From NCBI GenBank assembly GCA_018812525.1, contig JAHJDE010000182.1, positions 1-32,057 of the forward strand: a stretch of DNA of 32,057 nucleotides, in the 5' to 3' direction. The DNA comes from Gammaproteobacteria bacterium (GTDB taxonomy: Bacteria; Pseudomonadota; Gammaproteobacteria; Chromatiales; Chromatiaceae). The notes beneath the pieces were generated by a model, which ran no database searches, had not been told where the DNA came from, and worked only from the letters and a program-made list of their open reading frames with translations. Made by a program: the position numbers and the translations under genes. Each line of letters starts with the position of its first letter. Positions within the stretch are counted from its first letter, which is position 1. Positions 9,790-31,441 of this stretch are shown here, one piece after another.

Positions 9790-10116
9790 ACGTTCGCTTT
9801 GTATGGCCGGTTCTGGCCGCCCGGTGCCCACGGCACGATCAACTTGCGACCTTCAACCTCCTCAAGGCTCAATATCGGGAAATACGGCGGCTGGATCAAC
9901 TGGCAATGTGCCAGCAGTTCCCGCTGGATCTTGTCCAGTTGGTTGTCCGGCAAACCCACCGGGGGGAAATACCGGCTGGCCGTTGGCATCGCAATCCTGC
10001 CCGATCACCACGTAACCGCCGCCGAGGTTTTCGAAGTCGTTGGCAAAGGCGCAAAGGGCACGGATGATCGCGTCCGGGTTCCATCCAGTCTTGTACTCGA
10101 TACGCTCGCCCTCGAC
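9790..10116 (-). pseudogene. AlbA_2/Schlafen-type domain remnant
   Basis: The minus strand encodes GERIEYKTGWNPDAIIRALC, then AFANDFENLGGGYVVIGQD, the start of an AlbA_2 (Schlafen-like) DNA-binding domain. After a frameshift near a run of six G at about 9960, it continues VGLPDNQLDKIQRELLAHCQ up to VPWAPGGQNRPYKA. The rest of such a protein is missing. On one side it is joined directly to the hsdR remnant at INTVEG, on the other it abuts the arsM 3' end. It is not expressed as a functional protein. Confidence 0.7.
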
Positions 10117-11602
10117 CGTGTTGATGTAGTCGATACGGAACGGCAGCACATTCTTGTCGTTGATGGCGTCGACAATCGTGTAGGTGTGCAGCTTGTCGCC
10201 AAAGGCCTGTTCCGTGGTGCGCCGCAGCGGGGTTGCCGCTGGTACCCGCGTTGTCGGCGAAGATCGGCGTGCCGGTGAAACCGAACAGGTGGTAGCGCTT
10301 GAACACACGGGTGATTTCGGCGTGCATGTCGCCAAACTGGCTGCGATGGCATTCGTCGAAAATCACCACCACATGCTGGTCATAGACCGGATGCTTCTTG
10401 TTCTTGGCCACGAAGCGGGAAAGCTTCTGGATGGTGGTGATGATGATGCGCGCGTTGGGGTCTTCCAGTTGCCGTTGCAGCACCGCCGTCGAGGTATTGG
10501 AGTTGGCCGCCCCTTTCTCGAAGCGTTCGTATTCACGCATGGTCTGATAATCCAGATCCTTGCGGTCCACCATGAACAGCACTTTATCGATCTCCGGCAG
10601 GCCCCGCGCCAGCTGCGCCGCCTTGAAGCTGGTCAGCGTCTTGCCGCTGCCGGTGGTGTGCCAGATGGTGCCGCCCGCTGCGACGGTGCCCAACTGCTTG
10701 TGGTTGGTGGCGGTGACTATGCGTTGCAGGATGCGTTCCGCCGCGACGATCTGATAGGGCCGCATCACCAGCAGCTTGCGATCCACGTCGAAAACGCAGT
10801 AACGGGTCAGGACGTTGAGCAGCGAGTGCTTGGCGAAAAAGGTCTTGGTGAAACCGGTCAGCTCGGTGATTGGCTGATTCTTCGCGTCGGCCCACCAGCT
10901 GGTGAACGAAAAGCTGTTCGAGGTCTTGCTCTTGCTGCGTTTGCTACGCTGCTCCGCCAGATGGCCGTCGCGCACGGTGTTGCTGTAATACTTGGTCAGC
11001 GTGCCGTTGCTGATGACGAATAGCTGCACGTATTCGAACAGGCCACAACCCGCCCAGAAACTGCCGCACTGGTAGCGGTTGATCTGGTTGAAGGCCTCGC
11101 GGATATCCACGCCCCGCCGCTTCAGCTCGATGTGCACCATCGGCAGCCATTGACCAGCACGGTAACATCGAAGCGGGTAGCACGCGCAGAAAATTCCCCT
11201 CCACTGGAGGGGTGCCCGGAGGGCGGGGTGGTCATGTACTGGTTGATGACTTGCAGGCTGTTGTTGTGGATATGCTGCTTGTCGATCAGGTAGATGTTCT
11301 TGATGCTGCCGTCGTCACGCTTGAGCACCTGGATGTGGTCTTCCTGGATGCGCGCGGTTTTTTCGATGATGCCCTCAAAGCTACCGGCAATGCAGGTGCT
11401 GAAGAACCGATTCCGAGGTAATGGGCAGGTATTCATAGGCCTGTACCTGCAACTGCTTGATGAAGGCCTTTTCTAGCTCTGCTTCGGATTGATAGGCGGC
11501 TTCCCGAACGCCAAGGAAATCGGGCAGAAATTCGGCGACAACGGTGCTCTCGTTGGACAGCGCAATCGGTTCGTAGCGGCAAGATTTGAGGCCTTCGCTC
11601 AT
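10117..11602 (-). pseudogene. hsdR: Type I restriction endonuclease subunit HsdR, truncated and frameshifted
   Basis: The start at 11602 (MSEGLKSCRYEPIALSNEST) and the sequence to EYLPITSES fit an HsdR N-terminus. About 30 residues are then missing with a frame change, followed by RFFSTCIAGSFEGIIEKT, DVTVLVNG, a one-base frameshift near 11145, HIELKRRG and the helicase motifs TTGSGKT, DECHRS and FTGTP. Another frameshift near 10240 leads to EQAFGDKLHTYTIVDAINDKNVLPFRIDYINTV, where HsdR ends and the AlbA_2 remnant begins. The C-terminal half is deleted. One palindromic repeat is read through in frame (TTPPSGHPSSGGEFSA). The subunit cannot be functional. Its start overlaps the DUF559 stop. Confidence 0.9.
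11192..11232 (+). repeat. DUF559-associated palindromic repeat, copy a (inside hsdR)
   Basis: This 41-base copy contains AATT, a CCCCTCC/GGAGGGG hairpin, a CCCGGAGGG mini-hairpin and the end GGGGTGGT. On the minus strand it is translated in frame within the hsdR remnant as a proline/glycine-rich insert before RATRFDVTVLVNG. Confidence 0.8.
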
Positions 11603-17366: not shown

Positions 17367-18248
17367 ATGACCAAGCGTTTCGAAATGGCGATATTTCCCC
17401 TGTCGAGAAGGCGTTTCTGCACGGCACTGGCCCTGTGCGGACTGGCGCCACGCGCGCTTGCCGGGGAGCCGGCGCCGTTGCGGCTCGGGCTGACGCCGGT
17501 CTTCCTCGACGATCAGTCCCGTTTTCTGGAGGCCTGGCGCCTCTATCTGACCGAGCGGTTGCAGCGCCCGGTGGTCTTCGTGCAGCGGGGCAGTTACCGG
17601 GAGATCGTGGAGCTGCTGGCCCAGGACCAGCTTGAGGCGGCCTGGCTGTGCGGTTTTCCGTTCGTGAAAAACGAACGGCGGTTGCGGCTGCTGGCGGTGC
17701 CGCTGTTTCAAGGCAGGCCGCTCTACCGCTCTTACCTGATCGTCCCCGCCGGGGATACCCGCACCGAGACCCTGCTCGATCTGCGCGGCAAGGTCTTTGC
17801 CTATTCCGATCCCGATTCCAACTCCGGCTTCCTTTATACCCAGCATGCCCTGTCCCAAATAGGGGAACGGTCGGACCGCTTTTTCGCCCGGACCTTCTTT
17901 GCCTGGGCGCACCGCAAGGTGGTCGAGGCCGTCGCCGTCGAGCTGGCCCAGGGCGGGGCGGTGGATGGCTATGTCTGGGAGACCCTGAAACGTTTCTATC
18001 CCCAGGTGACCGCCAAGACGCGGGTGCTGGAGCAGTCGCCGGAATTCGGCTTTCCCCCTTTCGCCGCCCGCGCCTCCCTTCCGGAGGCCGATTTCGCCGC
18101 GCTGCGCCAGGTCCTCATCGCCATGGGCGGTGATGCGGAGGGCAAGGCGTTATTGGCCCAGCTCAACCTGGACGGTTTCGTGCCAGGGGAACGGGGGCTT
18201 TTTGACGGCATCGGCCGGATGGCCAGGCAAGTCGAGAAACAGCCATGA
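17367..18248 (+). CDS. PhnD-like periplasmic oxyanion sensor (AioX/ArxX-like)
   Basis: This 293-residue exported binding protein is of the phosphate/phosphonate-binding (PhnD) type. An N-terminal signal with SRRRFCTALALCGLA and cleavage near ALAGE could be Sec or Tat. The mature part has LRLGLTPVFLDDQSRFLEAW, a ligand-loop LEAAWLCGFPFVKNERR, LRGKVFAYSDPDSNSGF and VDGYVWETLKRF. Cys95 in WLCGFPF could correspond to the single Cys that binds As(III) in AioX; that alignment is from memory and needs checking. It starts the three-gene sensor operon and its TGA overlaps the kinase ATG. In the Aio and Arx systems such proteins sense arsenite; other oxyanions remain possible. Confidence 0.85.
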   Translation: MTKRFEMAIFPLSRRRFCTALALCGLAPRALAGEPAPLRLGLTPVFLDDQSRFLEAWRLYLTERLQRPVVFVQRGSYREIVELLAQDQLEAAWLCGFPFVKNERRLRLLAVPLFQGRPLYRSYLIVPAGDTRTETLLDLRGKVFAYSDPDSNSGFLYTQHALSQIGERSDRFFARTFFAWAHRKVVEAVAVELAQGGAVDGYVWETLKRFYPQVTAKTRVLEQSPEFGFPPFAARASLPEADFAALRQVLIAMGGDAEGKALLAQLNLDGFVPGERGLFDGIGRMARQVEKQP

Positions 18249-19692
18249 AATACTTCATGCGCGACCTCAGTCTGCGCTACAAGATCCCGCTGCGGGTGCT
18301 TCTGCTCGCCAGCCTTACCGCCATCCTGGTGACAGCCTCCATCCTGTTCCGGGTCTACGACGAGACCCGCAACGACCTGTTGCGGCACGCCCAGAGCATG
18401 GGCCGGGTGCTGGCCAATACCCTGGTCGGTCCCCTGACCCACGACGACGCCTGGCGCGCCTTCGAGATCATCAACTCCCCCTTCCAGAGCGAAGAGGCCG
18501 ACCGCTCCGAACTCGCCGAGACCATCCTGGTGCTGGATGGCAAGGGCCAGGTCTATGTCTCCACCCGCCCGGCCCAGTTCCCCATGCTGTCCGACCCGGT
18601 CCGGCTCGATCCGGAGTTCGCGGCCATCCGCGAGGCCACGGCGGGGCGCGATGGCCGCAACCCGGTGGTCAGGGCCCAGCCCGGTTCCAACCGCTTGTTC
18701 GTGGGGATACCGATCATCTCCGATGGGGCGCGCCTGGGCACTTTGATCATGACCTACACCAAGGGTCCCTTCATCCCCCGCTTCATCGGCATCGCCCAGC
18801 GCGCCGCCCTGATGACCCTGCTGGCGCTGGCGGTGCTGCTGCCCATCGCCTGGTACTGGGGCAACCGCATGGCCGGCCCCCTGGTGCGGCTGGCGGGCTG
18901 CATGGACCAGATCGGCCCCCAGGTGCCGGAGGGGTTGCGTTGCGACCTGTTCGAATCCAACGACGAGATCGGCCGCGCCGGGGCCTCCTTCAAGCGCATG
19001 CTGAAGGAACTGCGGGAGAAGGCGCGGCTGGAACAGCAAATCATGGCCACCGAACGGCTGGCGGCGATAGGCCGGCTCTCGGCCGGGATCGCCCATGAGA
19101 TCAACAACCCCCTGGGCGGCATGCTGAATGCCATCAACACCTTCAAACGTCACGGCAGCGACGATCCCCTCACCTTGAAGACCCTGTCGCTGCTGGAGCG
19201 CGGGCTCGGCCAGATCAAGGACACCGTGGCCGCGCTCCTGATCGAGGCACGGGTGGAGAGCCGTCACGCCCTGTCGCGCCGCGATATCGAGGATACCCGC
19301 ACCCTGGTGGCCGCCGAGGCCGCCAGCAAGGGGATCGAGCTGGCCTGGGACAACCACGTCACCGCCGATCTGCCGCTGCCCTCCACCCTGGTGCGGCAGA
19401 TTCTGCTAAACCTGCTGCTCAACGCCATCCGCGCCGCTGAAAAGCAGGTCGAGTGCCAGGTCTACCGCGACAGCCGCAGCCTCACCCTGGCGGTAAGGAA
19501 CGACGGCATCCATATCCCCGACGAGGACATGCCCTACCTGTTCGAGCCCTTTTCCCGCCTCTCCCGCAACGGCCACGGCCTGGGGCTCTGGATCACCTAT
19601 CAGATCACCCGTCAATTGAACGGCGGCATCCTGGTGGAGAGCGATCCGGGCCAGACCCGTTTCGCGGTAACCCTGCCCCTGCCGGAGGAACC

Positions 19693-19705
<13 letters not shown>
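18245..19705 (+). CDS. Membrane sensor histidine kinase (AioS/ArxS-like)
   Basis: This 486-residue kinase has a first membrane span (RVLLLASLTAILVTASILF), a periplasmic region of about 150 residues, a second span (ALMTLLALAVLLPIAWYW), a HAMP-like linker with GPLVRLAGCMDQIG, and the H-box RLSAGIAHEINNPLGGML with phospho-acceptor His284. The ATPase domain has the N-box (LLNLLLNAIRAAEKQV), a G1-like DEDMPYLFEPF and the G2 box GHGLGLWIT. It overlaps the sensor gene by four bases and the regulator gene by 13, so the three are co-translated. It probably receives the signal from the PhnD-like protein in the periplasm and phosphorylates the activator downstream. Confidence 0.9.
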
Positions 19706-21033
<1,328 letters not shown>

Positions 21034-21239: not shown

Positions 21240-22211
21240 TCAGCCACCCGTCGAGGACATAAAGCGGACTATCTTTTCTGGGACCTCCAGGAAGTCATGG
21301 CGTAAGGGCTTGAGCCTGACGCCTTTGACCAGGGCCGTCTCCAGCTCCCTCTCGGAACAACCGCCGCGGAGCAGCGACCTTAGATCCACACGCCCATTGT
21401 CCCCGAGGCAGGGGTAGAGCATGCCATCCACGCCCATGCGCACCCGGTTGCAGGTCTCGCAGAAGTGTTGCGACAGGGGGGTGATGAACCCAAGACTAAA
21501 GCGCCCGTCCGGCGAAATCAGATACCTGGCCGGTCCGCCGCCGGGTATCAGGCCATGCACCAAGCCAAGGCGTTCGCGCAACCGTTCCTGGATGGGGCCG
21601 AGCGCCATGAATCCGGCGCTTCTCCCCGTGCTGCCCACCGGCATGGTCTCGATCAGCCGCAGCACGAAACCCCGTTCGATACAAAAATCGGCCATGGCGT
21701 CGATCTCTTGGTCGTTGACGCCAGCCATGACCACCGTGTTGATCTTGATGGGGCTGAACCCCGCCGCCTTTGCCGCCGCCAGGCCATTCAGCACGGCGGG
21801 GAGGGCGTCGCGCTTGGTGATGGCGGCAAACCGGTCCCGGTCCAGGGAGTCGAGGCTGACGTTGAGCCGCGCGATCCCCGCCCCGCGCAGCGCCTCGGCC
21901 TGGCGGGTCAATTGGGTGGCATTGGTGGAAAGGGAGAGGTCGCTGATGCCGGGCAGAGCCGAAAGGCGGCGGGCGAGTCCGGCCAGATCCCGCCGCAACA
22001 GGGGCTCTCCCCAGGTCAGACGCACCCGCTGGACGCCAAGGCGGGCAAAGGCCGCCACCACCCGCTCGATCTCGTCGAAGCTCAGCCAATGGGCGGCCTC
22101 CTCGTAGCCCTTGAACCCCTCCGGCATGCAGTAGGCGCAACGCATATCGCAGCGGTCGGTCACGGAAAGCCGCAGATAGTCGATCCTCCGCCCGTGGTTG
22201 TCTCGCAGCAC
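21240..22211 (-). CDS. moaA: MoaA GTP 3',8-cyclase (molybdenum cofactor synthesis)
   Basis: This 323-residue radical-SAM enzyme makes the first molybdopterin precursor from GTP. It has the SAM-cluster motif CDMRCAYCMP near residue 20, the second-cluster cysteines in CETCNRVRMGVDGMLYPC, and the C-terminal double glycine (MSSTGG) that is essential in the family. The normally conserved GGEP motif reads LTWGEPLLRRDL, with Trp for the first Gly. It starts at a GTG with GAGGA upstream and is the last gene of the molybdoenzyme operon, which fits local supply of cofactor. A 54-base relic of a similar gene is found at 4459-4512. Confidence 0.93.
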   Translation of the reverse strand: MLRDNHGRRIDYLRLSVTDRCDMRCAYCMPEGFKGYEEAAHWLSFDEIERVVAAFARLGVQRVRLTWGEPLLRRDLAGLARRLSALPGISDLSLSTNATQLTRQAEALRGAGIARLNVSLDSLDRDRFAAITKRDALPAVLNGLAAAKAAGFSPIKINTVVMAGVNDQEIDAMADFCIERGFVLRLIETMPVGSTGRSAGFMALGPIQERLRERLGLVHGLIPGGGPARYLISPDGRFSLGFITPLSQHFCETCNRVRMGVDGMLYPCLGDNGRVDLRSLLRGGCSERELETALVKGVRLKPLRHDFLEVPEKIVRFMSSTGG

Positions 22212-22288: not shown

Positions 22289-23353
22289 TCAGCCAAAGAT
22301 CGCCGCCATGTCCTGCCCATCGCCATCGCAAGTGGGGCAGAATCCCTCCTTCCCCGTGGCGATGAAGAGGCGGTCGCAGCGGCCGCAGCGGCGTTTGTCC
22401 AATCCCTGCAAAAGAACCCCGTCCTTTACCCGCCCCAGGGCCAGCGGGGCCTTATCGGCAAAAGAGAGCGCGTCCGGCTGGCAGGCCTCCAGACAGACGC
22501 CGCAGCCGACGCAGCGGCTGAATTGGAACCGCAGCTCCCAGCGGCGCTGGCCCTCCCGGATGGCGAGGGCGCCGGTCGGGCAGGCGCGGGCGCAGGCCTC
22601 GCAGGCGTTACAGCCCGGCCCCAGCCGGATTTCGGCCAGGGGGAGACTGCCGTCCAGGGCGATCTCGCCCTCGCCCTCCGCCGGCCAGATGGCCTGCACC
22701 AGTTCGCGGCGCACGGTGGAAAGGGGCGCGGCGACCCGCACGGCCTTGAGCGGGGCGGGGTCTTGTTCAGCCCCCGTAAACACATGGCCGGCGAAGCGGC
22801 GGAACAGTTGGCGGCGGGCGGAATCGACCGGCGGGGCCTCTCCCCTGCCCTCCTTCCAGGCCAGCACCGGAGGCGGCCAGTCCCCGTTGCCCAGGGCATC
22901 CCCCAGCCACGCCGATCCTTCCAGGGCCAGCCCCAGTAGGGCCGCGCCCCTGGCCCCATGGGGGCAGTCGCCGCAATGACCGCTGCCCTTGAGTTCGACC
23001 GAAACACCACGTCCGGCGAGATAGGCCAGGAGACTGGCATCCAGCGCCCCCAGGCAGGGGACCCGCGCGTCGCCCTCCTCCTGGGACGGGGTGCAGGCGA
23101 ACGAGAACGCCGCGCGGCCCAAGGTCTGCTTGAGGAGATCGATACGCGGCAGGCCCTCCGCGTTCCAGGCCTCCGTTGGGCAGGCCGCCGCGCACAGGGC
23201 GCAATTCTGGCACAGGGCCGGATCGATGACCGCGCCCTCGTCCGAGAGCGACACCGCCCCCTGGGGACAGGCCTCCCGGCAGCGATCGCAGGCGCTGTAG
23301 CGGTACCGGTAGCGGGTGCAGCGTTCGCGGCGGAATTGGGGGACGGGGTTCAT
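22289..23353 (-). CDS. Multi-cluster 4Fe-4S polyferredoxin
   Basis: This 354-residue cytoplasmic protein has four recognisable 4Fe-4S motifs: CDRCREACPQGA (with an additional upstream Cys), CQNCALCAAACPTEA, CNACEACARACPTGA and CVGCGVCLEACQPDA. It also has a central CGDCPHGA pair and a C-terminal zinc-ribbon-like CGRCDRLF...CPTC. It resembles ferredoxins encoded near periplasmic molybdoenzymes such as formate dehydrogenases. The role may be electron transfer or enzyme maturation; no partner can be named from the sequence. The MITE upstream separates it from the rhodanese-like gene and supplies an AGAGG that may act as its ribosome site. Confidence 0.85.
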   Translation of the reverse strand: MNPVPQFRRERCTRYRYRYSACDRCREACPQGAVSLSDEGAVIDPALCQNCALCAAACPTEAWNAEGLPRIDLLKQTLGRAAFSFACTPSQEEGDARVPCLGALDASLLAYLAGRGVSVELKGSGHCGDCPHGARGAALLGLALEGSAWLGDALGNGDWPPPVLAWKEGRGEAPPVDSARRQLFRRFAGHVFTGAEQDPAPLKAVRVAAPLSTVRRELVQAIWPAEGEGEIALDGSLPLAEIRLGPGCNACEACARACPTGALAIREGQRRWELRFQFSRCVGCGVCLEACQPDALSFADKAPLALGRVKDGVLLQGLDKRRCGRCDRLFIATGKEGFCPTCDGDGQDMAAIFG

Positions 23354-23358
23354 GTTAT

Positions 23359-23498
23359 GGGCACCTCTAAAAATTCAATTTTCTAAGCCAGGCAAGGCGC
23401 GAGCAAAAAATTGCGACGCGCATATGAATGATATGTAAGGAGTAATTTTTTGTGAGCAACACAGCATGGCAACGAAAATTGGATTTTTAGAGGTGCCC
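23359..23498. mobile_element. 140-bp MITE inserted at a stop codon
   Basis: The ends are 25-base inverted repeats beginning GGGCACCTCTAAAAAT (23359-23383 and 23474-23498) with one mismatch. The sequence TTAT flanks both sides (23355-23358 and 23499-23502), consistent with a 4-base target duplication. The centre has nested AT-rich inverted repeats and no open frame, so it depends on a transposase elsewhere. The right copy of TTAT contains the TAA stop of the rhodanese-like gene on the minus strand. Confidence 0.88.
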
Positions 23499-23933
23499 TT
23501 ATTTTTTGTATTCCTGTAGCGGCTTCCCCTGCTGGCAGGTGTTGTGGGGGATGACGAAGTTGAACGGGACGGCGGAGGGTGATTTCTTCCGTTCGTCCAG
23601 GATCTCCTGCCAGGCCACCGGGCCGCCGCTCAGGGCGTAAACGGCCTGCCCGTCCGGTTGGGCGAGGGCCGTCGCCACCGCCATCGCCTGCTCGTCGTTG
23701 TCGGCCACCACCACGACCATGCCGGGGATCCGCTTCATGCCCGGCACGTAGGGGGTCGCCCCTTGCAGGGGCTGCTGGCGGACGGCATCCAGGCCGCGCG
23801 CATCCACCAGCAACACGCCTGGCGCCATGGCGATCACCGGCCCCAGCGCGGTGGGCGTCTTGAGGCTGACGTCGGCTTGGGCCAGTGGCGAGATAGCGAG
23901 GGCCAGCCAGAGAATGACCAGAGTTTTTCTCAT
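23499..23933 (-). CDS. Periplasmic rhodanese-like protein without active-site Cys
   Basis: This 144-residue protein has a signal peptide (MRKTLVILWLALAISPLAQA) and a rhodanese-like fold: LLVDARGLDAVRQQPLQGAT, IPGMVVVVADNDEQAMAVATAL and VYALSGGPVAWQEIL. The active-site loop, normally C-x-x-G or similar, reads LSGG, so persulfide chemistry there is not possible. The C-terminal region has a lone Cys in IPHNTCQQGKP. It starts four bases inside the end of the HisF-like gene (ATGA overlap) and ends exactly at the MITE. In some molybdoenzyme clusters such proteins accompany sulfur or arsenic oxyanion reductases and oxidases. Confidence 0.75.
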   Translation of the reverse strand: MRKTLVILWLALAISPLAQADVSLKTPTALGPVIAMAPGVLLVDARGLDAVRQQPLQGATPYVPGMKRIPGMVVVVADNDEQAMAVATALAQPDGQAVYALSGGPVAWQEILDERKKSPSAVPFNFVIPHNTCQQGKPLQEYKK

Positions 23934-24607
23934 GCGGGTAGCTCCTCTTCGGGCTGTGGCTGTTCGAGGGACAGTGTCATCCCCGGCGGCAAGACGAAGC
24001 GCGAGGCGCCGCCGAACCGGTGCCACCCCTCCGCCCCCCAGTCCGCTGCCGGCTGGGAGAGGGGGGCGATCCAGAGCAGGTCGCCCTGCTTTTCGACCAG
24101 GGCGCTGCAAAGGTTGTGGTCGATATCGTCCTCGAAATCGACCGATACCAGCATCAGGCCGGCGCCCCGTTCCCGCATCTTCTCCAGCCACCAGGCCGCG
24201 TCGGTGCCGGTGGCCGTGCCGTCGGCGCGAGTCACCTCCCAGCCCGGCTCGCCCAGGCTGGGGGTCAGGCAGCGGAAGTCGGCGTTGCTGACCCTATCCA
24301 GGCCCCAGGAGATCGCCTTGCGGCGCAGGGGCAGCCAGACGCCGATGCGATCGGAGCCGAAGCGTTGCACCATGCGCCGGACCAGCTCGCTGTCCCCCAG
24401 GGCCGCGTCGGCGAACAGCACCCGCCCGGCGCCCCGGCCCAGGAGTTCGGTGGCGCGGGCCTCGCCGGCGCTCGGCAATAGGATGTTGAGGGATGACAGA
24501 TCCTCCGGCAGGTCTTCGCTGTCATGCAGGAACAGTGGTCCTGCCTCGGGCACGTCCGGGGCGAGACCCCAGCGACCGATTTCGATTAGTGCTGATGCAT
24601 CGCTCAT
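23930..24607 (-). CDS. HisF-like TIM-barrel protein lacking catalytic residues
   Basis: This is a 225-residue protein. From about residue 45 to 175 it follows the order of HisF (imidazole glycerol phosphate synthase cyclase): SAGEARATELLGRGAGRVLF, then ADAALGDSELVRRMVQRFGS, GWEVTRADGTATGTDAAWWL and ERGAGLMLVSVDFEDDIDHN. The strand carrying the second catalytic Asp of HisF reads WLPLRRK, and the N-terminal strand with the first catalytic Asp is not recognisable, so it is not a histidine enzyme. Start at 24607 has GAGGT upstream. It overlaps the rhodanese-like gene and follows the DUF309-like gene by 38 bases. The HisF relation is by eye; function unknown, perhaps a cofactor- or enzyme-maturation role. 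Confidence 0.65.
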   Translation of the reverse strand: MSDASALIEIGRWGLAPDVPEAGPLFLHDSEDLPEDLSSLNILLPSAGEARATELLGRGAGRVLFADAALGDSELVRRMVQRFGSDRIGVWLPLRRKAISWGLDRVSNADFRCLTPSLGEPGWEVTRADGTATGTDAAWWLEKMRERGAGLMLVSVDFEDDIDHNLCSALVEKQGDLLWIAPLSQPAADWGAEGWHRFGGASRFVLPPGMTLSLEQPQPEEELPA

Positions 24608-24645: not shown

Positions 24646-25056
24646 TCAGCCGCATGGAAACCTCCCGGCGTAGTTCAGCGGGTTGCAGGTGAAGGGTTGC
24701 AGGGGACAATCGGCCTCGTTTTCCAGGCCGACGATCAGCGGGCGGAGTTCCTCCAAGGAGGAGAGCATCGGCCCCACCGCGAGGCCGTGGCGTTCGGGGG
24801 CGAAGGCCGGCAGCACCCGCAGTGCGTCGTCCAGCAGCAACAGGGCTCCCTCCTGGTTGTGGTTCTGGGTGAAATGGAAGGCCAGGGCAGCAAAGGCCAA
24901 GCCCTGAAGAAAGCGGGCATCCGGGTCTTCCTCTCCCGAGGGCAGGGTCTGGATCAAATAATTCCAGCGTTCGCCCAGCCAGTCGTGGACCGGGCCGAAG
25001 CCGTTGCCGTCCCAGAGGGGGGCCAGGTCGGACCAGGTAAAGAGATCTGCTCGCAT
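24646..25056 (-). CDS. DUF309-like small helical protein
   Basis: This 136-residue protein has features of DUF309: VHDWLGERWNYL early and RFLQGLAFAALAFHFTQNHN, then QEGALLLLDDALRVLPAFAP, which matches the family pattern of a first helix with H-x-W-E and a repeat LQGL.Q.A.A..H...GN..GA..LL..AL. The family's function is not known. The start at 25056 is preferred because GAGAGA precedes it; 34 further codons upstream are intergenic. It lies in the molybdoenzyme operon after the chaperone gene, separated from it by a strong hairpin. Confidence 0.65.
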   Translation of the reverse strand: MRADLFTWSDLAPLWDGNGFGPVHDWLGERWNYLIQTLPSGEEDPDARFLQGLAFAALAFHFTQNHNQEGALLLLDDALRVLPAFAPERHGLAVGPMLSSLEELRPLIVGLENEADCPLQPFTCNPLNYAGRFPCG

Positions 25057-25183: not shown

Positions 25184-25975
25184 TTATCCCGTCATGAGGG
25201 AGACGGGGACCTCGCTGGCTACAGGGTCGTGACTCATTGGATTACCGCCGCAGGTCAGGCCCTCCGTCTCCGGCTGGGGCTGCTCGACGATACTGCCGTC
25301 GGCATCCTCCACCCTGATTCCTAAACGGCTGATCTCATCCTCGGCAAACCCGAGCAACAAGCGGGCCATCTCCCGGTAGAAGGAGTGATCGGCGGCCCGT
25401 TCCACCAGCCGGCCGAAGCCCCGCGCCCAGCGGCCCAGGTGGAGGCTCCAGAACCGCTTGATCTCCTTCTCCAGCCGCCGCAGCTCTCGCCCCTCGGCGG
25501 CCTCCGCTGCCGCGGCCGATTGCCCCAGCAGCTCCGCCAGGAAGGCCAGCTCCACCCCCAGATGGTCGTGGAAGATGGCGAAGCGGCCTGGCCGGACCTC
25601 GAATCCCAACCGCCGGTAATCGGCCTGGACCTCGTAATAGGGCTCCTGCTGGGTACGGCCGGTCAGCCGGGCCGACTCCACCGGCAGGCAGCCGCCGGGG
25701 GAGGCGAACAGGCTGGCGTACTCGCAGGCCAGGGTCTCCTCCAGTTGATCGAGCGGGGGATCGGTAAAGTCCCTGTCGAGGCTGATCCCCATCTCGGCCA
25801 GCCCCGCCAGGGCCTCCGGTTGCCGCAGCCCGGCCAGAAAGCCGGCGCCGGGCTCGCCGCCGAAGGCGCTGGAGAGTAGACGGTAGATACCGGCCCTGGC
25901 CAGGAGGTCTTCCTTCAGCTCCTGGGGATCGAAAGACGCCTCGCCGTGAACGGGGACGGAGACTAAGGCTTGCAT
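25184..25975 (-). CDS. TorD/DmsD-family molybdoenzyme chaperone (ArxD-like)
   Basis: This 263-residue all-helical protein resembles TorD-type chaperones: DLLARAGIYRLLSSAFGGEPGAGFLAGL, EETLACEYASLFASPGGCLP, VESARL, EVQADYRRLGFEVRPG, FHDHLGVELAFLAELLGQSA and FWSLHLGRWARGFGRLVERA. Such chaperones bind the Tat signal and aid cofactor insertion of the molybdoenzyme. The C-terminal 40 residues are variable. It follows the catalytic subunit by 163 bases, interrupted by an inverted repeat. The neighbourhood strongly supports a dedicated role for the 26139-28769 enzyme. Confidence 0.9.
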   Translation of the reverse strand: MQALVSVPVHGEASFDPQELKEDLLARAGIYRLLSSAFGGEPGAGFLAGLRQPEALAGLAEMGISLDRDFTDPPLDQLEETLACEYASLFASPGGCLPVESARLTGRTQQEPYYEVQADYRRLGFEVRPGRFAIFHDHLGVELAFLAELLGQSAAAAEAAEGRELRRLEKEIKRFWSLHLGRWARGFGRLVERAADHSFYREMARLLLGFAEDEISRLGIRVEDADGSIVEQPQPETEGLTCGGNPMSHDPVASEVPVSLMTG

Positions 25976-26138: not shown

Positions 26139-28769
26139 TCAATGCCCGCCGGCCGGCTTGTGCTTGACGCTCTCCGGTCCGACCCAGGCGCTCATCTCGG
26201 GATGCATCTTGCGGTGCAGGTCGCCGGTGTAGGCATAGCGCAGGGTCTCCTTGAAGGCCTCCTGGTGCTTGTCCCAGTCGCCTTTCACGTCGCCGTACTT
26301 GTCGTTGGGTCCGGCCTTGGTCACCTTGACCACCGTGTCGTACCAGCCCTGGGAACCGCCGATGGGGTCGGCCACCACGGGGATGATGGCATTGGGATGC
26401 ACACCCTTGTCGTCCCACCAGACGTTCTTCAGATCCGGGTCGTCCTGGGCACCGAAGGCCCCGCCCTTCTCCTTCAGCTTGAGCGTGGCCAGGCGGCCGT
26501 ACTCCCAGTGGCCGAAGGCGGTGGGGATGGCCACTACCTTGGGATGAATGCCCTCGAAGACGTAGGCCTTGGTCACCAGATGGCCCACGGCGCTCTCCAC
26601 CCGCACCAGGTCGCCGGTCTTGACCCCCATCTTTTCGCCCGTGACGGTATTCATCCACACCGGGTTGGAGTGCATGATCTCCGCCAGCCACTTGACCGCC
26701 GCCGAGCGCGACTGCTTGTGGACGTTGATCTTGTAGGTGGTGAGGACCAGCTCGTCGTCCTTCATGGTCTCGTGCCAGGGGATGCGCTTGAAGGTGGGCA
26801 TGGGGTTGAAGCCGTACTCGGCCCACTGGTCCACCCGCACGTTGATCAGCCGGTTGCCGGTGGGGAAGCCGACATGGTTCTTGCCGTTGCGCTGAACGCC
26901 GATGGCCTTGCCGTTCTTCATGATGACGCCGTTGGCCTCGATGGTGGTCCCGGCCATTTCGGCCTCCGGGATCTCCTTCTTGTGCAGGCCGTACTCGGGC
27001 ACGATCTCGCGTCCGGTCTTATCGACGATCTTGCCGGTGGCCGGGTCGAGCTTGCCGTAGATGGGCCAGACGCCGTGCTTCTTGAGGAAATCGAGACCCC
27101 CGGCCTCCTTCAGCCCCGGTACGTTGTCGAAGTGATGGCGCAGGTAGTCCTCGCCGTCCTTGAAGTTCCAGTACTGCTTCATGCCGCGCGAGCCGTCCGG
27201 GTCGAGCTTGTGGATGATGTCGCGCAGGATGATGCGGTTCTCGCGCGCCTCGCCCAGGGGCTTGATGACCGGCTGGCGGATGCCCAGCCAGGGCCAGAGG
27301 GAGTTGGGCATGGACTCCGGTTCCCAGCGTTCCAGGTAGGGACAGTCCGGCAGGATGATGTCGGCCAGGGCCGTCTCCTCGCCCATGAAGGGGCTCATGG
27401 AGACGTAGAAGGGGATCAGCTTCTCGTCACGGAACAGCTTGCCCCAGACCGCCTGGGCGCCCGGATTGGTATAGACCGGGTTGTCCTGGTAGGTGAAGTA
27501 GACGTTGATCTTCTGCTTACCCTCGGCGATCCAGAAGGGGGTGAGGTGGCTGACCTTGTGCCCGGCCAGGGGGTACTCGTCCGGGTGGGAGAGATACGAC
27601 GGCTTGGCCGGCTTGGGCGGTTGCGGCTCCGGCTGGGGCCAGCCCATGCCGCGTGGCATGCAGTAGCCGCCGCGCGTCTCGATGTTGCCGGTCATGATGG
27701 GCAGCATCATGCAGGCCTTCTCGTTGTAGGAACCGTACAGGTGCTTGGCTGGGCCGCGGTAGGTGTAGGTGGTGGCCGGCTTGGTGGTGGCGAACTCGCG
27801 GGCGATGCGTTCGATGGTGGCTGCGGGCACGCCGGAGAGCTTCTCGGCCCATTCCGGGGTGTAGGACTGGTAGTGGGCCTTCAACTCCTGCACCGTGACG
27901 TTGGTCCAGGTATTGATGAAGTCGCTGTCCTGGAGGTCGTCGCGCAGGATGACGTGGCCGATGGCCAGGGCCACGGCGCCATCGGTGCCGGGGAAGACCG
28001 GAATCCACTCATCGGAACGCCCGGCGGTGTTGGACAACCGCACGTCGAAGGTCACCAGCTTGGCCTTGTTCTCCGCCGTTCCCTCGACGATGCGTTGGGA
28101 GTAAGGGTTATGGAAGTAGGCCGCCTCGTAGATGTTGGAGCCGAAGTTGAGGATGTACTTGCTGTTGGCAAAGTTCGGGGTCTCGATGTCCGGCCCCCAG
28201 GTGGGCTCCATGCCGATCTTCTTCGACGATTCGCACACCGAGGTGTGGTTGACGAGGGTGGCCGATCCCAGGGTGTGCATGAAGCGGTCGATGGCCCCGC
28301 CGGTACGGTTGCGGCCGTATTTCAGCATCACGGTGTTGGGGTCCTCCTTGATGGCCGCGTCCAGCTTCTGGGCGATCTCGGCCAGGGCCTCGTCCCAGGT
28401 GATGCGCTTCCACTTGCCCTCGCCCCGCGCCCCGACCCGCTTCAGGGGATAGAGGATGCGATCCGGGTCGTAGCTGTACCACATCCCGGCGTTGCCCTTG
28501 GCGCAGAGGCGGCCACGGGTGGAGACGTGCTCCGGGTTGCCCTCCAGCTTGACCACCCGGCCGTTCTCCACGAAGGCGATGGCGCCGTCCTGGATGTTGC
28601 AGAAGTGGCAGGTGATGGGGATGGCCTGGCGCTCGCCGTAGGTGACGGGGGAAAAGTCCTTGCCGCCCAGTTCCGTCTCCATCGCCTTCAGCAGGCTGGG
28701 GGCCGTGGCGACCGCCGCGGCCGTTCCACCGCTGACCTTGATGAAGTTTCTCCGATTCATTTTCAGCAT
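26139..28769 (-). CDS. Tat-exported molybdopterin oxidoreductase catalytic subunit (ArxA/PsrA/TtrA type)
   Basis: This 876-residue protein of the DMSO reductase family has a Tat signal (NRRNFIKVSGG). Cluster motif: Cys54, Cys57 and Cys89 with spacing CX2C-X31-C. The position of the third Cys of the usual CX2CX3CX27C is Asp61. Cys179 in NHTSVCESS is the probable Mo ligand. Further landmarks are the bis-MGD-binding stretches KYILNFGSNIYEAAYF, IWPVFPGTDGAVALAIGHV-like PVFPGTDGAVALAIGHV, PIMTGNIETRGGYCMPRG and ADIILPDCPYLERWEPE. With an FeS subunit, NrfD anchor and chaperone it forms a periplasmic respiratory complex. Arx-like arsenite oxidase is favoured by context; tetrathionate, thiosulfate or polysulfide chemistry cannot be excluded. 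GGGAG precedes the start. Confidence 0.85.
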   Translation of the reverse strand: MLKMNRRNFIKVSGGTAAAVATAPSLLKAMETELGGKDFSPVTYGERQAIPITCHFCNIQDGAIAFVENGRVVKLEGNPEHVSTRGRLCAKGNAGMWYSYDPDRILYPLKRVGARGEGKWKRITWDEALAEIAQKLDAAIKEDPNTVMLKYGRNRTGGAIDRFMHTLGSATLVNHTSVCESSKKIGMEPTWGPDIETPNFANSKYILNFGSNIYEAAYFHNPYSQRIVEGTAENKAKLVTFDVRLSNTAGRSDEWIPVFPGTDGAVALAIGHVILRDDLQDSDFINTWTNVTVQELKAHYQSYTPEWAEKLSGVPAATIERIAREFATTKPATTYTYRGPAKHLYGSYNEKACMMLPIMTGNIETRGGYCMPRGMGWPQPEPQPPKPAKPSYLSHPDEYPLAGHKVSHLTPFWIAEGKQKINVYFTYQDNPVYTNPGAQAVWGKLFRDEKLIPFYVSMSPFMGEETALADIILPDCPYLERWEPESMPNSLWPWLGIRQPVIKPLGEARENRIILRDIIHKLDPDGSRGMKQYWNFKDGEDYLRHHFDNVPGLKEAGGLDFLKKHGVWPIYGKLDPATGKIVDKTGREIVPEYGLHKKEIPEAEMAGTTIEANGVIMKNGKAIGVQRNGKNHVGFPTGNRLINVRVDQWAEYGFNPMPTFKRIPWHETMKDDELVLTTYKINVHKQSRSAAVKWLAEIMHSNPVWMNTVTGEKMGVKTGDLVRVESAVGHLVTKAYVFEGIHPKVVAIPTAFGHWEYGRLATLKLKEKGGAFGAQDDPDLKNVWWDDKGVHPNAIIPVVADPIGGSQGWYDTVVKVTKAGPNDKYGDVKGDWDKHQEAFKETLRYAYTGDLHRKMHPEMSAWVGPESVKHKPAGGH

Positions 28770-28783
28770 GTCTCTCTCCCGAT

Positions 28784-29641
28784 TCAGAAGTAGGTTTGCA
28801 CGATCTGACCGCCGATGAGGATGGCGTAGCGCAGGGCCATGCCTCCCACCAGGATCAGGACGGCGGCGGACAGGATGCCGGTCTGACGGTGGCCAAAGGG
28901 GGTCACCAGCAGGGCGATGGGGGCTGCGGTGCCGAGTAGGATGCCGAGACCGATGAAGATGCCGCCCAGGGCGCCGCTGGTCAGGAACATGAAGGTCTGT
29001 TCCGCCCCCACGCCGCCATAGGCCGTGGTGCCGAGCAGCGAGATCAGCATGGCGCCGACCCCGCCCGCTGACCAGAGCATGAAACGGCGCAGCATGACTT
29101 GCAGTTGCTCGTTCTTGCCCGCCAGGAAGGAGGCGACCGCCGCGCCGGAGACCAGGGAGAGGGCGACGAACAGCACCGGCATCAGCGGCGAGTTCCAGAC
29201 CGGCCGGTTCTGATGCACGGTCAAGTCGAAGCCGGTGTAGATGGGCAGGCCCACCGCCAGCAGGGAGCCGATGACTCCCAGCAGGCGGCCGGTGGGCTCG
29301 TTGTTCGAGCGCAACATGAAGAAATAGGCCACCGACACCAGGCCGAAGGAGATCAGGTTCAGCCCGCCCCAGGCCAGGGGCGAAGCGAAGTTGAGATAGG
29401 CCGGGTTCAGGATGTTGAGGAAACGGCCCGGCTGGGTCAGATCACCAATCAGCAGCAGCCCGCCCAGGCCCAGCAACAGGAAGGAGAGGTAAAACGCGCT
29501 GGCCCGGATGGGCTTGAACTCCGCCTGGTACCAGGAGAGGGTGGAGAAGAAGAACAGCGCGGCGGAGATGCCGATGACGAAGAAGTAGATCGCATAACTC
29601 CCCGACCAAGGCATCTGATGGAAAATGTTGAAATCACCCAT
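28784..29641 (-). CDS. NrfD/PsrC-like membrane anchor subunit
   Basis: This 285-residue integral membrane protein of the NrfD family exchanges electrons with quinone. It opens MGDFNIFHQMPWSGSYAIYF and has about eight spans, including LSFLLLGLGGLLLIGDL, WGGLNLISFGLVSVAYFFML, GVIGSLLAVGLPIYTGFDL and LILVGGMALRYAILIGGQIV. No haem or cluster ligands are apparent. It lies between the FeS and catalytic subunit genes, 14 bases from each. It anchors the complex on the periplasmic face of the inner membrane. Confidence 0.9.
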   Translation of the reverse strand: MGDFNIFHQMPWSGSYAIYFFVIGISAALFFFSTLSWYQAEFKPIRASAFYLSFLLLGLGGLLLIGDLTQPGRFLNILNPAYLNFASPLAWGGLNLISFGLVSVAYFFMLRSNNEPTGRLLGVIGSLLAVGLPIYTGFDLTVHQNRPVWNSPLMPVLFVALSLVSGAAVASFLAGKNEQLQVMLRRFMLWSAGGVGAMLISLLGTTAYGGVGAEQTFMFLTSGALGGIFIGLGILLGTAAPIALLVTPFGHRQTGILSAAVLILVGGMALRYAILIGGQIVQTYF

Positions 29642-29655
29642 GGTAGTGCTCCCGA

Positions 29656-30360
29656 TTAGGCCTTGTGGTTATCGAACGCCTGGCGATCCCGTTCCAGGAC
29701 CTCCGGCGGGTTGTAGACCGCGCGCCCGTGCTCGGTGAGATTGCGGTCGGCGCCGATGTAGAACACGTTCGGCTTGGTGCCCTCCTCGGGGCGCAGCACC
29801 TGGGTCGGCAGGGTGGCGACCAGACGGGCCACCTCGGAGCTGGGATCGTTGAGGTCGCCGAAGATGCGCGCCCGGCCGATGCAGGTCTGGACGCAGGCCG
29901 GCGCCATGCCTTGGACCACCCGGTGGTGGCAGAAGGTACACTTGTCCACCACGCCGGTGATGTCGGTGCTGGTGCGGTTCTTGGGCAGCAGGAAGCGGGC
30001 GTTGTAGGGGCAGGAGGCCATGCAGGCCTTGCAGCCGATGCAGCGGTCGTAGTGCTGGAGCACGAAGCCGCCGTCCTCGACCTTGTAGGTCGCCCCCACC
30101 GGACAGGAGCGCACGCAGGGCGGGTCATCGCAGTGATTACAGAGACGGGGCAGGAACTGCTTGCGGACATTGGGATAGGTACCCACCACGCGGTAGGGCA
30201 CCCAGGTGCGCCACACCCCGAGCGGGACATCGTATTCGGCCTTACAGGCCACCATGCAGGCGTCGCAGCCGATGCAACGCCGCAGGTCGATGACCATGGC
30301 GTAGCGTTTTTTTCCCGGCACGCCGCGGGTTTCGATGGAAGACAGGCGTAATTCGCTCAT
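29656..30360 (-). CDS. Four-cluster 4Fe-4S electron-transfer subunit
   Basis: This 234-residue protein is of the DmsB/PsrB/NrfC/TtrB type. Cysteine motifs for four 4Fe-4S clusters are CIGCDACMVACKAE, CNHCDDPPCVRSCPVGA, CIGCKACMASCPYNA and CTFCHHRVVQGMAPACVQTCIG. It has no signal peptide, as expected for a subunit exported together with the Tat substrate. The start at 30360 has GGAGGAG ten bases upstream; longer frames are not conserved. It is the first gene of the operon and follows the sigma-54 promoter by about 100 bases. Confidence 0.92.
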   Translation of the reverse strand: MSELRLSSIETRGVPGKKRYAMVIDLRRCIGCDACMVACKAEYDVPLGVWRTWVPYRVVGTYPNVRKQFLPRLCNHCDDPPCVRSCPVGATYKVEDGGFVLQHYDRCIGCKACMASCPYNARFLLPKNRTSTDITGVVDKCTFCHHRVVQGMAPACVQTCIGRARIFGDLNDPSSEVARLVATLPTQVLRPEEGTKPNVFYIGADRNLTEHGRAVYNPPEVLERDRQAFDNHKA

Positions 30361-30464
30361 GTTTTTGGGTCTCCTCCGGAATTCCAGCCAGGCCCGGTTC
30401 GACGCCTTCATCAAGCACCGCCGGACAGCCTCGACCCGGTTACTGCCTGGGTCGAAGGATTCAT

Positions 30465-30480
30465 TGCACCTGCCATGCCA
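30465..30480 (-). promoter_or_regulatory. Sigma-54 (-24/-12) promoter of the molybdoenzyme operon
   Basis: On the minus strand TGGCATGGCAGGTGCA has the invariant GG (30479-30478) and GC (30467-30466) at the exact 10-base spacing, and 14 of 16 bases agree with TGGCACG-N4-TTGCA when the N positions are counted as matching. Transcription would begin near 30454, giving a leader of about 94 bases before the first gene. The stretch 30361-30676 between the divergent genes holds this promoter and the upstream sites and no gene. Confidence 0.82.
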
Positions 30481-30533
30481 GATCATAACGCTCTGTTTGT
30501 TATGTCTTTTCCTGTATTGCTGTGGAGAGGGGA

Positions 30534-30676: not shown

Positions 30677-31441
30677 ATGGCTTTCCGATTGCGTCTGATA
30701 TCAACAGCCGGCCAGGAAAACGAAATGCCCGACAATAAAGGGGAAATGACGCCCAACAAGGCAAAGGCGTTGATGATCGCCAAGCGCCAGTTGGCCGAAT
30801 TCGTTTATGACGCGGTAAATCTGGAAGGCATCCCCTTCACCCTGCCGGAGATCCAGACCCTGCTGGATGGCATAACCGTTGGCGGGCACAAGCTATCGGA
30901 CCAACAAATCGCCATCAATCAGAAAAACGCCTGGGTCAGATTGTTCGAATGGGTCGCCGCCGGCGAATTCAGGATATCCAAGGAAAATGCCTGCGAACTC
31001 CACGCCATCGCGGCCAAGGAAGAGGCTCTGGTGTGGGGGAGCTTCCGCTCAGGCGGCGTCTATATCGCAGGCACCCCCTATACGCCGCCACATCCGGCAG
31101 AACTGGACGGCATTTTCTCGCGCATGAAGGAGGGGCTCGCGTCCCTTGACGATGTCTACGATCAAGCCATCCATCTCTTTCTGGTCATGGCGCGCAGCCA
31201 GTTCTTCTACGATGTCAACAAACGCCTGGGCCGCTTCATGATGAACGGCCACCTACTGGCACACGGCTATCCGGCGATCAACCTCCCCGCGAAGCGGCAA
31301 TTGGAATTCAACCAATACATGCTCGCCTTTTACGAGAGCGGCGATGAGACCGAAATGAACCAATTCCTCCGCTCCTGCCTGGACCCGAGAATCATCGACA
31401 TCATGAAAGAAGAATCGCCGGATCGGAAAGAGCAGAGTTGA
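30677..31441 (+). CDS. Fic-domain protein with a degenerate catalytic motif
   Basis: This 254-residue protein has a Fic fold. In the region of the catalytic HPFxDGNGR/KR motif it reads SQFFYDVNKRLGRFMMNG: the catalytic His is replaced by Gln and the Gly by Val, while the Asp, Asn, Lys/Arg and downstream GRFMMNG are kept. N-terminal segments are IPFTLPEIQTLLDGITVGGH, KNAWVRLFEWVAAGEF and YIAGTPYTPPHPAELDGIF, the last being the target-docking flap. GGGAGG precedes the ATG. AMP transfer is unlikely by the standard mechanism; another activity or a regulatory role is possible. It stands alone, divergent from the molybdoenzyme operon. Confidence 0.85.
   Translation: MAFRLRLISTAGQENEMPDNKGEMTPNKAKALMIAKRQLAEFVYDAVNLEGIPFTLPEIQTLLDGITVGGHKLSDQQIAINQKNAWVRLFEWVAAGEFRISKENACELHAIAAKEEALVWGSFRSGGVYIAGTPYTPPHPAELDGIFSRMKEGLASLDDVYDQAIHLFLVMARSQFFYDVNKRLGRFMMNGHLLAHGYPAINLPAKRQLEFNQYMLAFYESGDETEMNQFLRSCLDPRIIDIMKEESPDRKEQS

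Follow-up and report, generated by a model that had tools for sequence, protein, structure and literature searches.

A candidate HisF-derived pseudoenzyme paired with a rhodanese-like protein in the operons of one clade of PsrABC/PhsABC-like molybdoenzymes

The DNA analysed here (the window) is a stretch of 32,057 nucleotides, contig JAHJDE010000182.1 of a gammaproteobacterium placed in the Chromatiaceae (assembly GCA_018812525.1). It carries an operon for a periplasmic molybdoenzyme in which one open reading frame (ORF) encodes a protein resembling HisF. An initial annotation had given this ORF the correct coordinates, 23930-24607, and no strand, which is minus; an alternative in-frame ATG at 24655, with GGGAGG just 5' of it, would yield a protein of 241 residues. 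The same annotation described the gene as coupled to one for a rhodanese-like protein, in an operon otherwise devoted to the molybdoenzyme, and both points hold. The two genes overlap by a 4-bp ATGA in the window, and the overlap of stop and start is kept in 11 of 11 related operons (as ATGA in six); the remaining genes encode subunits B, C and A, a TorD-type chaperone, a NapF-like ferredoxin and a MoaA paralogue, with genes for a PhnD-like protein, a kinase and a regulator on the opposite strand (Table 1).

The closest orthologue of the HisF-like protein (76% identity) is encoded in a metagenome-assembled genome of a gammaproteobacterium (locus L006), and another, 41% identical and annotated there as 'hypothetical protein', on plasmid pAZKH of Azoarcus sp. 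KH32C. A genome search with the catalytic subunit retrieved more operons of this kind, termed type 1 (G181, G425, G430, G433, G438 and G690); a pattern scan of genome contigs returned one relative only, by close identity, and viral contigs yielded no HisF-like relative. Gene order is the same in nine of nine type-1 operons: B, C, A, TorD, DUF309-like, HisF-like, rhodanese-like and Fe-S protein.

Taken singly, the window protein matches the Pfam His_biosynth model with 24.7 bits (cut-off 23.6 bits) over residues 51-154 only; scores of 19-25 bits with this model also occur elsewhere in the same genomes, in unrelated stretches, and the match was therefore not taken as proof, by itself, of kinship with HisF. 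The profile built from nine orthologues, aligned with proteobacterial HisF (hhalign, 98.2%, E 5e-14) and with HisA (71%, E 4e-5), bears out the claim that the middle of the protein follows HisF. The top matches of this profile outside the family are HisF genes, its best match in PDB is HisF-LUCA (2.5e-7), and the 60 PDB matches listed all belong to HisF, to HisA or to designs derived from these. The HisF equivalog model TIGR00735 gives the window protein 25.1 bits against a cut-off of 294.55. One common stretch reads WEVxxADGTxTGTDAxWWxxKMxxxGAG in the window and WEVFTHGGRKATGIDAxxWAxKMxxxGAG in HisF. By these comparisons of sequence, the protein descends from HisF. Structure prediction went part of the way in the same direction: with two homologues only it was poor (predicted local distance difference test, pLDDT, 42), and with HisF sequences from viral contigs added it reached a mean pLDDT of only 61 and a predicted template modelling score of 0.60, the resulting model matching HisF structures with Z 15.2 over 185 residues at 3.4 A. 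Since the added sequences bias the alignment towards HisF, the predicted HisF-like fold, which would be a (beta/alpha)8 barrel, is supportive only.

The residues on which HisF catalysis depends have been lost, as the initial annotation had read from altered and unrecognisable strands. Catalytic Asp130 of HisF, at the end of beta5, aligns with Pro93, a proline invariant in all nine orthologues, and nothing in the N-terminal ~50 residues aligns credibly with the beta1 strand that bears Asp11 (KRIIPCLDV in HisF). The phosphate-binding motifs GGGI, INT, ASGG and AAS of beta3, beta4, beta7 and beta8 are all replaced. What has been gained is a 17-residue insertion after beta5 (loop 5) bearing SWxxDxxSNADF, in which W101, N108, A109, D110 and F111 are invariant; 29 residues are invariant across the nine divergent orthologues, 13 of them within residues 93-139. 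A role in histidine biosynthesis was rejected because intact, full-length hisF and hisA are present elsewhere in all ten genomes checked. Loss of catalytic residues and fast divergence would also suit a functionless hisF duplicate in decay. The gene is under purifying selection, however, with ratios of nonsynonymous to synonymous substitution rates of 0.32 (window and L006), 0.26 and 0.14 in three pairs; these values, the 29 invariant residues, and the 11 operons in which the frame is still open and stop and start still overlap led us to reject decay, an explanation we regard as scarcely credible.

Two distant operons (type 2; G117 and G140), with subunit A 57-62% identical, carry a different protein of ~250 residues directly before the rhodanese-like gene. 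In profile comparisons this protein matches HisF (90%, 2e-6) and the type-1 profile (82%, 1e-5), gives no match to HisA, and retains another part of the Pfam model than the type-1 protein does, namely beta6 to beta8; it is a second degenerate HisF. The pair of HisF-like and rhodanese-like genes occurs in each of the 11 operons whose subunit A is at least about 57% identical and, as judged with both HisF-like profiles and a rhodanese profile, is missing from 13 of 13 loci at 34-45% identity, the loci counted being those with flanking sequence. Among 369 sampled genomes of the class, the type-1 profile finds only two, both with a type-1 operon, its background there being true HisF at 46 bits or less. 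The survey of co-occurrence suggested with the initial annotation thus places the HisF-like gene strictly with one type of molybdoenzyme, in 11 operons that share descent, may in part have been transferred (one being plasmid-borne), and do not count as independent events. Taken with the profile match to HisF and the predicted fold, the three checks suggested there all favour the initial annotation. Given its constant place in all eleven, the protein is probably a dedicated helper of the reductase.

The HisF scaffold could instead have been re-tooled as a new enzyme, with an active site at loop 5 acting on a small molecule such as a cofactor intermediate or a substrate-derived thiol. The conserved polar and aromatic residues R96, W101, N108, D110 and D129 cluster around the former catalytic mouth, as in re-purposed TIM barrels; yet the phosphate-binding motifs are gone, most strand-end positions at beta3, beta7 and beta8 vary among orthologues, and the type-2 version retains a different part of HisF. 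We consider such an enzyme unlikely, while taking it more seriously than the other alternatives.

The rhodanese-like partner, too, is degenerate as judged from its residues, a point that adds to the initial annotation. Its 11 homologues fit one common profile, appear by eye to carry a Sec signal peptide, and retain the Asp/Arg and GG residues that belong to the rhodanese fold; the active-site cysteine is absent in all 11. Their one invariant cysteine lies in a C-terminal motif of the type F(V/I/T)IPxxxC (Cys133 in FVIPxxTC in the window). A rhodanese domain is recognised by profile in the homologue at locus L037 (5.9e-7, above cut-off) and falls below the cut-off in the window copy taken alone (0.09). 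An outlying match in another genome (G585; L089 3820-4299) is likewise rhodanese-like and ends in the same C-terminal FVIPRGLCEMNEPA tail; it is encoded between genes that by eye are TatB/TatC-like and molybdate-transport-like (ModABC); in spite of the common tail it was rejected as a member of the pair, the molybdoenzyme not being nearby.

Table 1. Features of the molybdoenzyme locus in the window
Feature	Coordinates	Strand	Remarks
4Fe-4S subunit B	29656..30486	minus	domain profiles; conserved part begins near 30360
Membrane subunit C, NrfD/PsrC	28784..29641	minus	domain profiles
Catalytic subunit A, PhsA/PsrA-like	26139..28769	minus	Tat signal, one Fe4S4 domain
TorD/NarJ-type chaperone (Nitrate_red_del)	25184..25975	minus	domain profiles
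Small protein, 136 residues	24646..25056	minus	weak DUF309 resemblance, below cut-off
HisF-like candidate pseudoenzyme	23930..24607	minus	225 residues; Asp130 position (beta5) is Pro93; loop-5 motif SWxxDxxSNADF, residues 100-111
Rhodanese-like protein, 144 residues	23499..23933	minus	Sec-type signal peptide by eye
Cytoplasmic multi-[4Fe-4S] protein with NapF-like match	22289..23353	minus	domain profiles
MoaA paralogue	21240..22211	minus	domain profiles
PhnD-like periplasmic binding protein, candidate signal receptor	17367..18248	plus	
Sensor histidine kinase	18245..19705	plus	
Sigma-54-dependent (NtrC-type) response regulator	19702..21033	plus	orthologue annotated likewise

Several features of the locus stand apart from this argument. 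Between the rhodanese-like and Fe-S genes of the window (23356-23501) lies an imperfect 38-bp inverted repeat (84%) around ~70 bp, of which an 89% copy occurs at G000:C72:6352-6474; the element is absent from L006, where the two genes overlap, and looks like a small mobile insertion resembling miniature inverted-repeat transposable elements. The MoaA encoded in the operon reads RLTWGEPLLR where L006 has RLTGGEPLLR, an alteration of the radical-SAM GGEP motif, and a second, higher-scoring MoaA is encoded on G000:C67. A gene of the Fic/DOC family lies just past the operon start (30677-31441). The type-2 operons (L036 7246-8816 and L037 7268-9071) have, between the TorD and Fe-S genes, genes for a protein with an MGS-like (methylglyoxal-synthase-type) domain and a family-4 glycosyltransferase, both unexpected in a molybdoenzyme operon.

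Divergent genes for the PhnD-like protein, the kinase and the sigma-54 regulator stand beside all type-1 operons but that of L006, in which they were not seen within the stretch covered. In G690 a further regulator (60% identical to that of the window) and a further kinase (44%) are encoded just downstream of the operon (L063 18423-20000), which suggests a duplicated regulatory set or a second operon. Dead enzymes frequently become regulators, and with a regulatory set dedicated to the operon the HisF-like protein might act as a regulator or a sensor of some ligand, and so tune how the reductase is expressed or assembled. We think this improbable: its gene stands among assembly genes, not beside the regulators, in all type-1 operons, and sensing would already fall to the PhnD/kinase pair, as it does for tetrathionate to the PhnD-like domain described in the kinase TtrS, a domain also used to find a thiosulfate sensor (PMC5408782).

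The enzyme has the features of PsrABC and PhsABC: a molybdopterin subunit with an Fe4S4 domain, exported by twin-arginine translocation (Tat), a 4Fe-4S subunit and an NrfD membrane subunit. Subunit A is closest to PhsA/PsrA, with a score of 359 bits for the PhsA model (cut-off 694) and lower ones for other curated models, and matches the PsrA-type structure 2vpw in PDB (E 2e-56); subunits A and C both fall below every curated cut-off for characterised members. At L006 a protein with a double TusA domain is encoded between the Fe-S and MoaA genes (9845-10678), and upstream of the operon there is a DsrE-like gene (1291-1713). The operon for the respiratory selenite reductase of Bacillus selenitireducens, srrABCDEF, is described as encoding a rhodanese-domain protein (PMC12481199). 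Because of PhnD-like sensing as in TtrS, the rhodanese of the selenite reductase operon and the TusA/DsrE-type genes at L006, the substrate is, by analogy, likely to be a sulfur or selenium oxyanion.

The reading that we prefer, and hold tentatively, is that the HisF-derived protein is a dedicated cytoplasmic accessory factor of this PsrABC/PhsABC-like reductase, probably in its maturation. Descended from a copy of a proteobacterial-type hisF, the gene would now encode a trimmed, catalytically dead beta/alpha barrel working in the cytoplasm for one clade of Tat-exported enzymes. The former active-site mouth, with its loop-5 motif, would most likely bind the catalytic subunit while this is immature, or else the complex that loads its cofactor; the protein would act before export, alongside TorD, the NapF-like Fe-S protein and the small protein resembling DUF309. 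After export the enzyme would be served in the periplasm by the coupled rhodanese-like protein, acting through the cysteine conserved in that protein's C-terminal part. Maturation-type genes for TorD, NapF-like and MoaA proteins lie near the HisF-like gene, and the G117 and G140 operons add two Fe-S ATPases of NUBPL type (in G140 by eye), which fits an assembly function. A role ahead of Tat export is suggested by analogy with TorD and with NapF, which NapA reportedly needs for the assembly of its Fe-S centre prior to export by Tat (PMC10609526).

The strict linkage to the enzyme could also point to a structural subunit, or to a scaffold of the electron-transfer complex, that remains associated with the mature enzyme or the NapF-like protein at the membrane. 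We rate this somewhat below a regulatory function, as the HisF-like protein has no signal peptide (by eye) or membrane segment apparent, whereas the Tat signal of subunit A implies that the mature complex should be periplasmic. Against an accessory role weigh the following: the role is read from gene neighbourhood; mean identity is 36% for the HisF-like protein against 77% for subunit A, which leaves few strictly conserved surfaces; region 93-139 is enriched in invariant residues with p 0.0016 over the whole protein but, at p 0.06, not significantly so over the aligned core only; much of the predicted model has low confidence; and the protein may have a new catalytic or ligand-binding activity.

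If an accessory role is nonetheless right, the HisF barrel may, as we suggest more cautiously still, have given rise to a new class of factors for molybdoenzyme maturation, with no kinship to TorD/NarJ or NapD, in which a remodelled active-site mouth holds or hands over the catalytic subunit, paired with a dead periplasmic rhodanese acting after export. In agreement with the initial annotation, we found no account of a HisF paralogue serving in such a complex, nor of any HisF-like protein with a rhodanese or in such an operon, in the literature searched, outside which most subscription journals lie; 'HisF' does not occur in a review of maturation (PMC10609526). The finding is extended here to a conserved pair, with lost catalytic residues, tied to one uncharacterised reductase clade. 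The activation of respiratory molybdoenzymes depends on accessory proteins, among which few folds are known; a HisF-derived pseudoenzyme in this role would clearly exemplify the conversion of a core metabolic enzyme into an assembly factor. As a marker of the clade, the pair offers a genomic handle on candidate sulfur or selenium oxyanion respiration.

Among known systems, HisF itself shares with the protein the sequence from beta3 to alpha6, including the HisF-type WEV...TGxDAxxWxxKMxxxGAG, and HisF structures best match its predicted barrel; the HisF-like protein differs in its missing Asp11 and Asp130 counterparts and phosphate motifs, its shortened N-terminal quarter, its loop-5 insertion and a gene outside any his operon. 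WbuZ and AglZ/HisF2 are likewise HisF paralogues recruited into another pathway, but their gene context is unlike that found here and their models match weakly (20.2 and 14.8 bits against cut-offs of 299.7 and 310). The PsrABC, PhsABC and TtrABC reductases agree with the window enzyme in subunit types and domains, while its subunit A lies far under the PhsA cut-off. The srrABCDEF operon, compared by description only, likewise joins a catalytic subunit with Tat signal, an Fe-S subunit, a membrane anchor, a chaperone and a rhodanese-domain protein, although this account of six genes names no HisF-like protein (as summarised in PMC12481199). The molybdoenzyme accessory proteins TorD/NarJ, NapD and NapF belong to other families than the HisF-like protein but are its counterparts in the kind of role proposed, and TorD-type and NapF-like proteins are encoded in the same operon.
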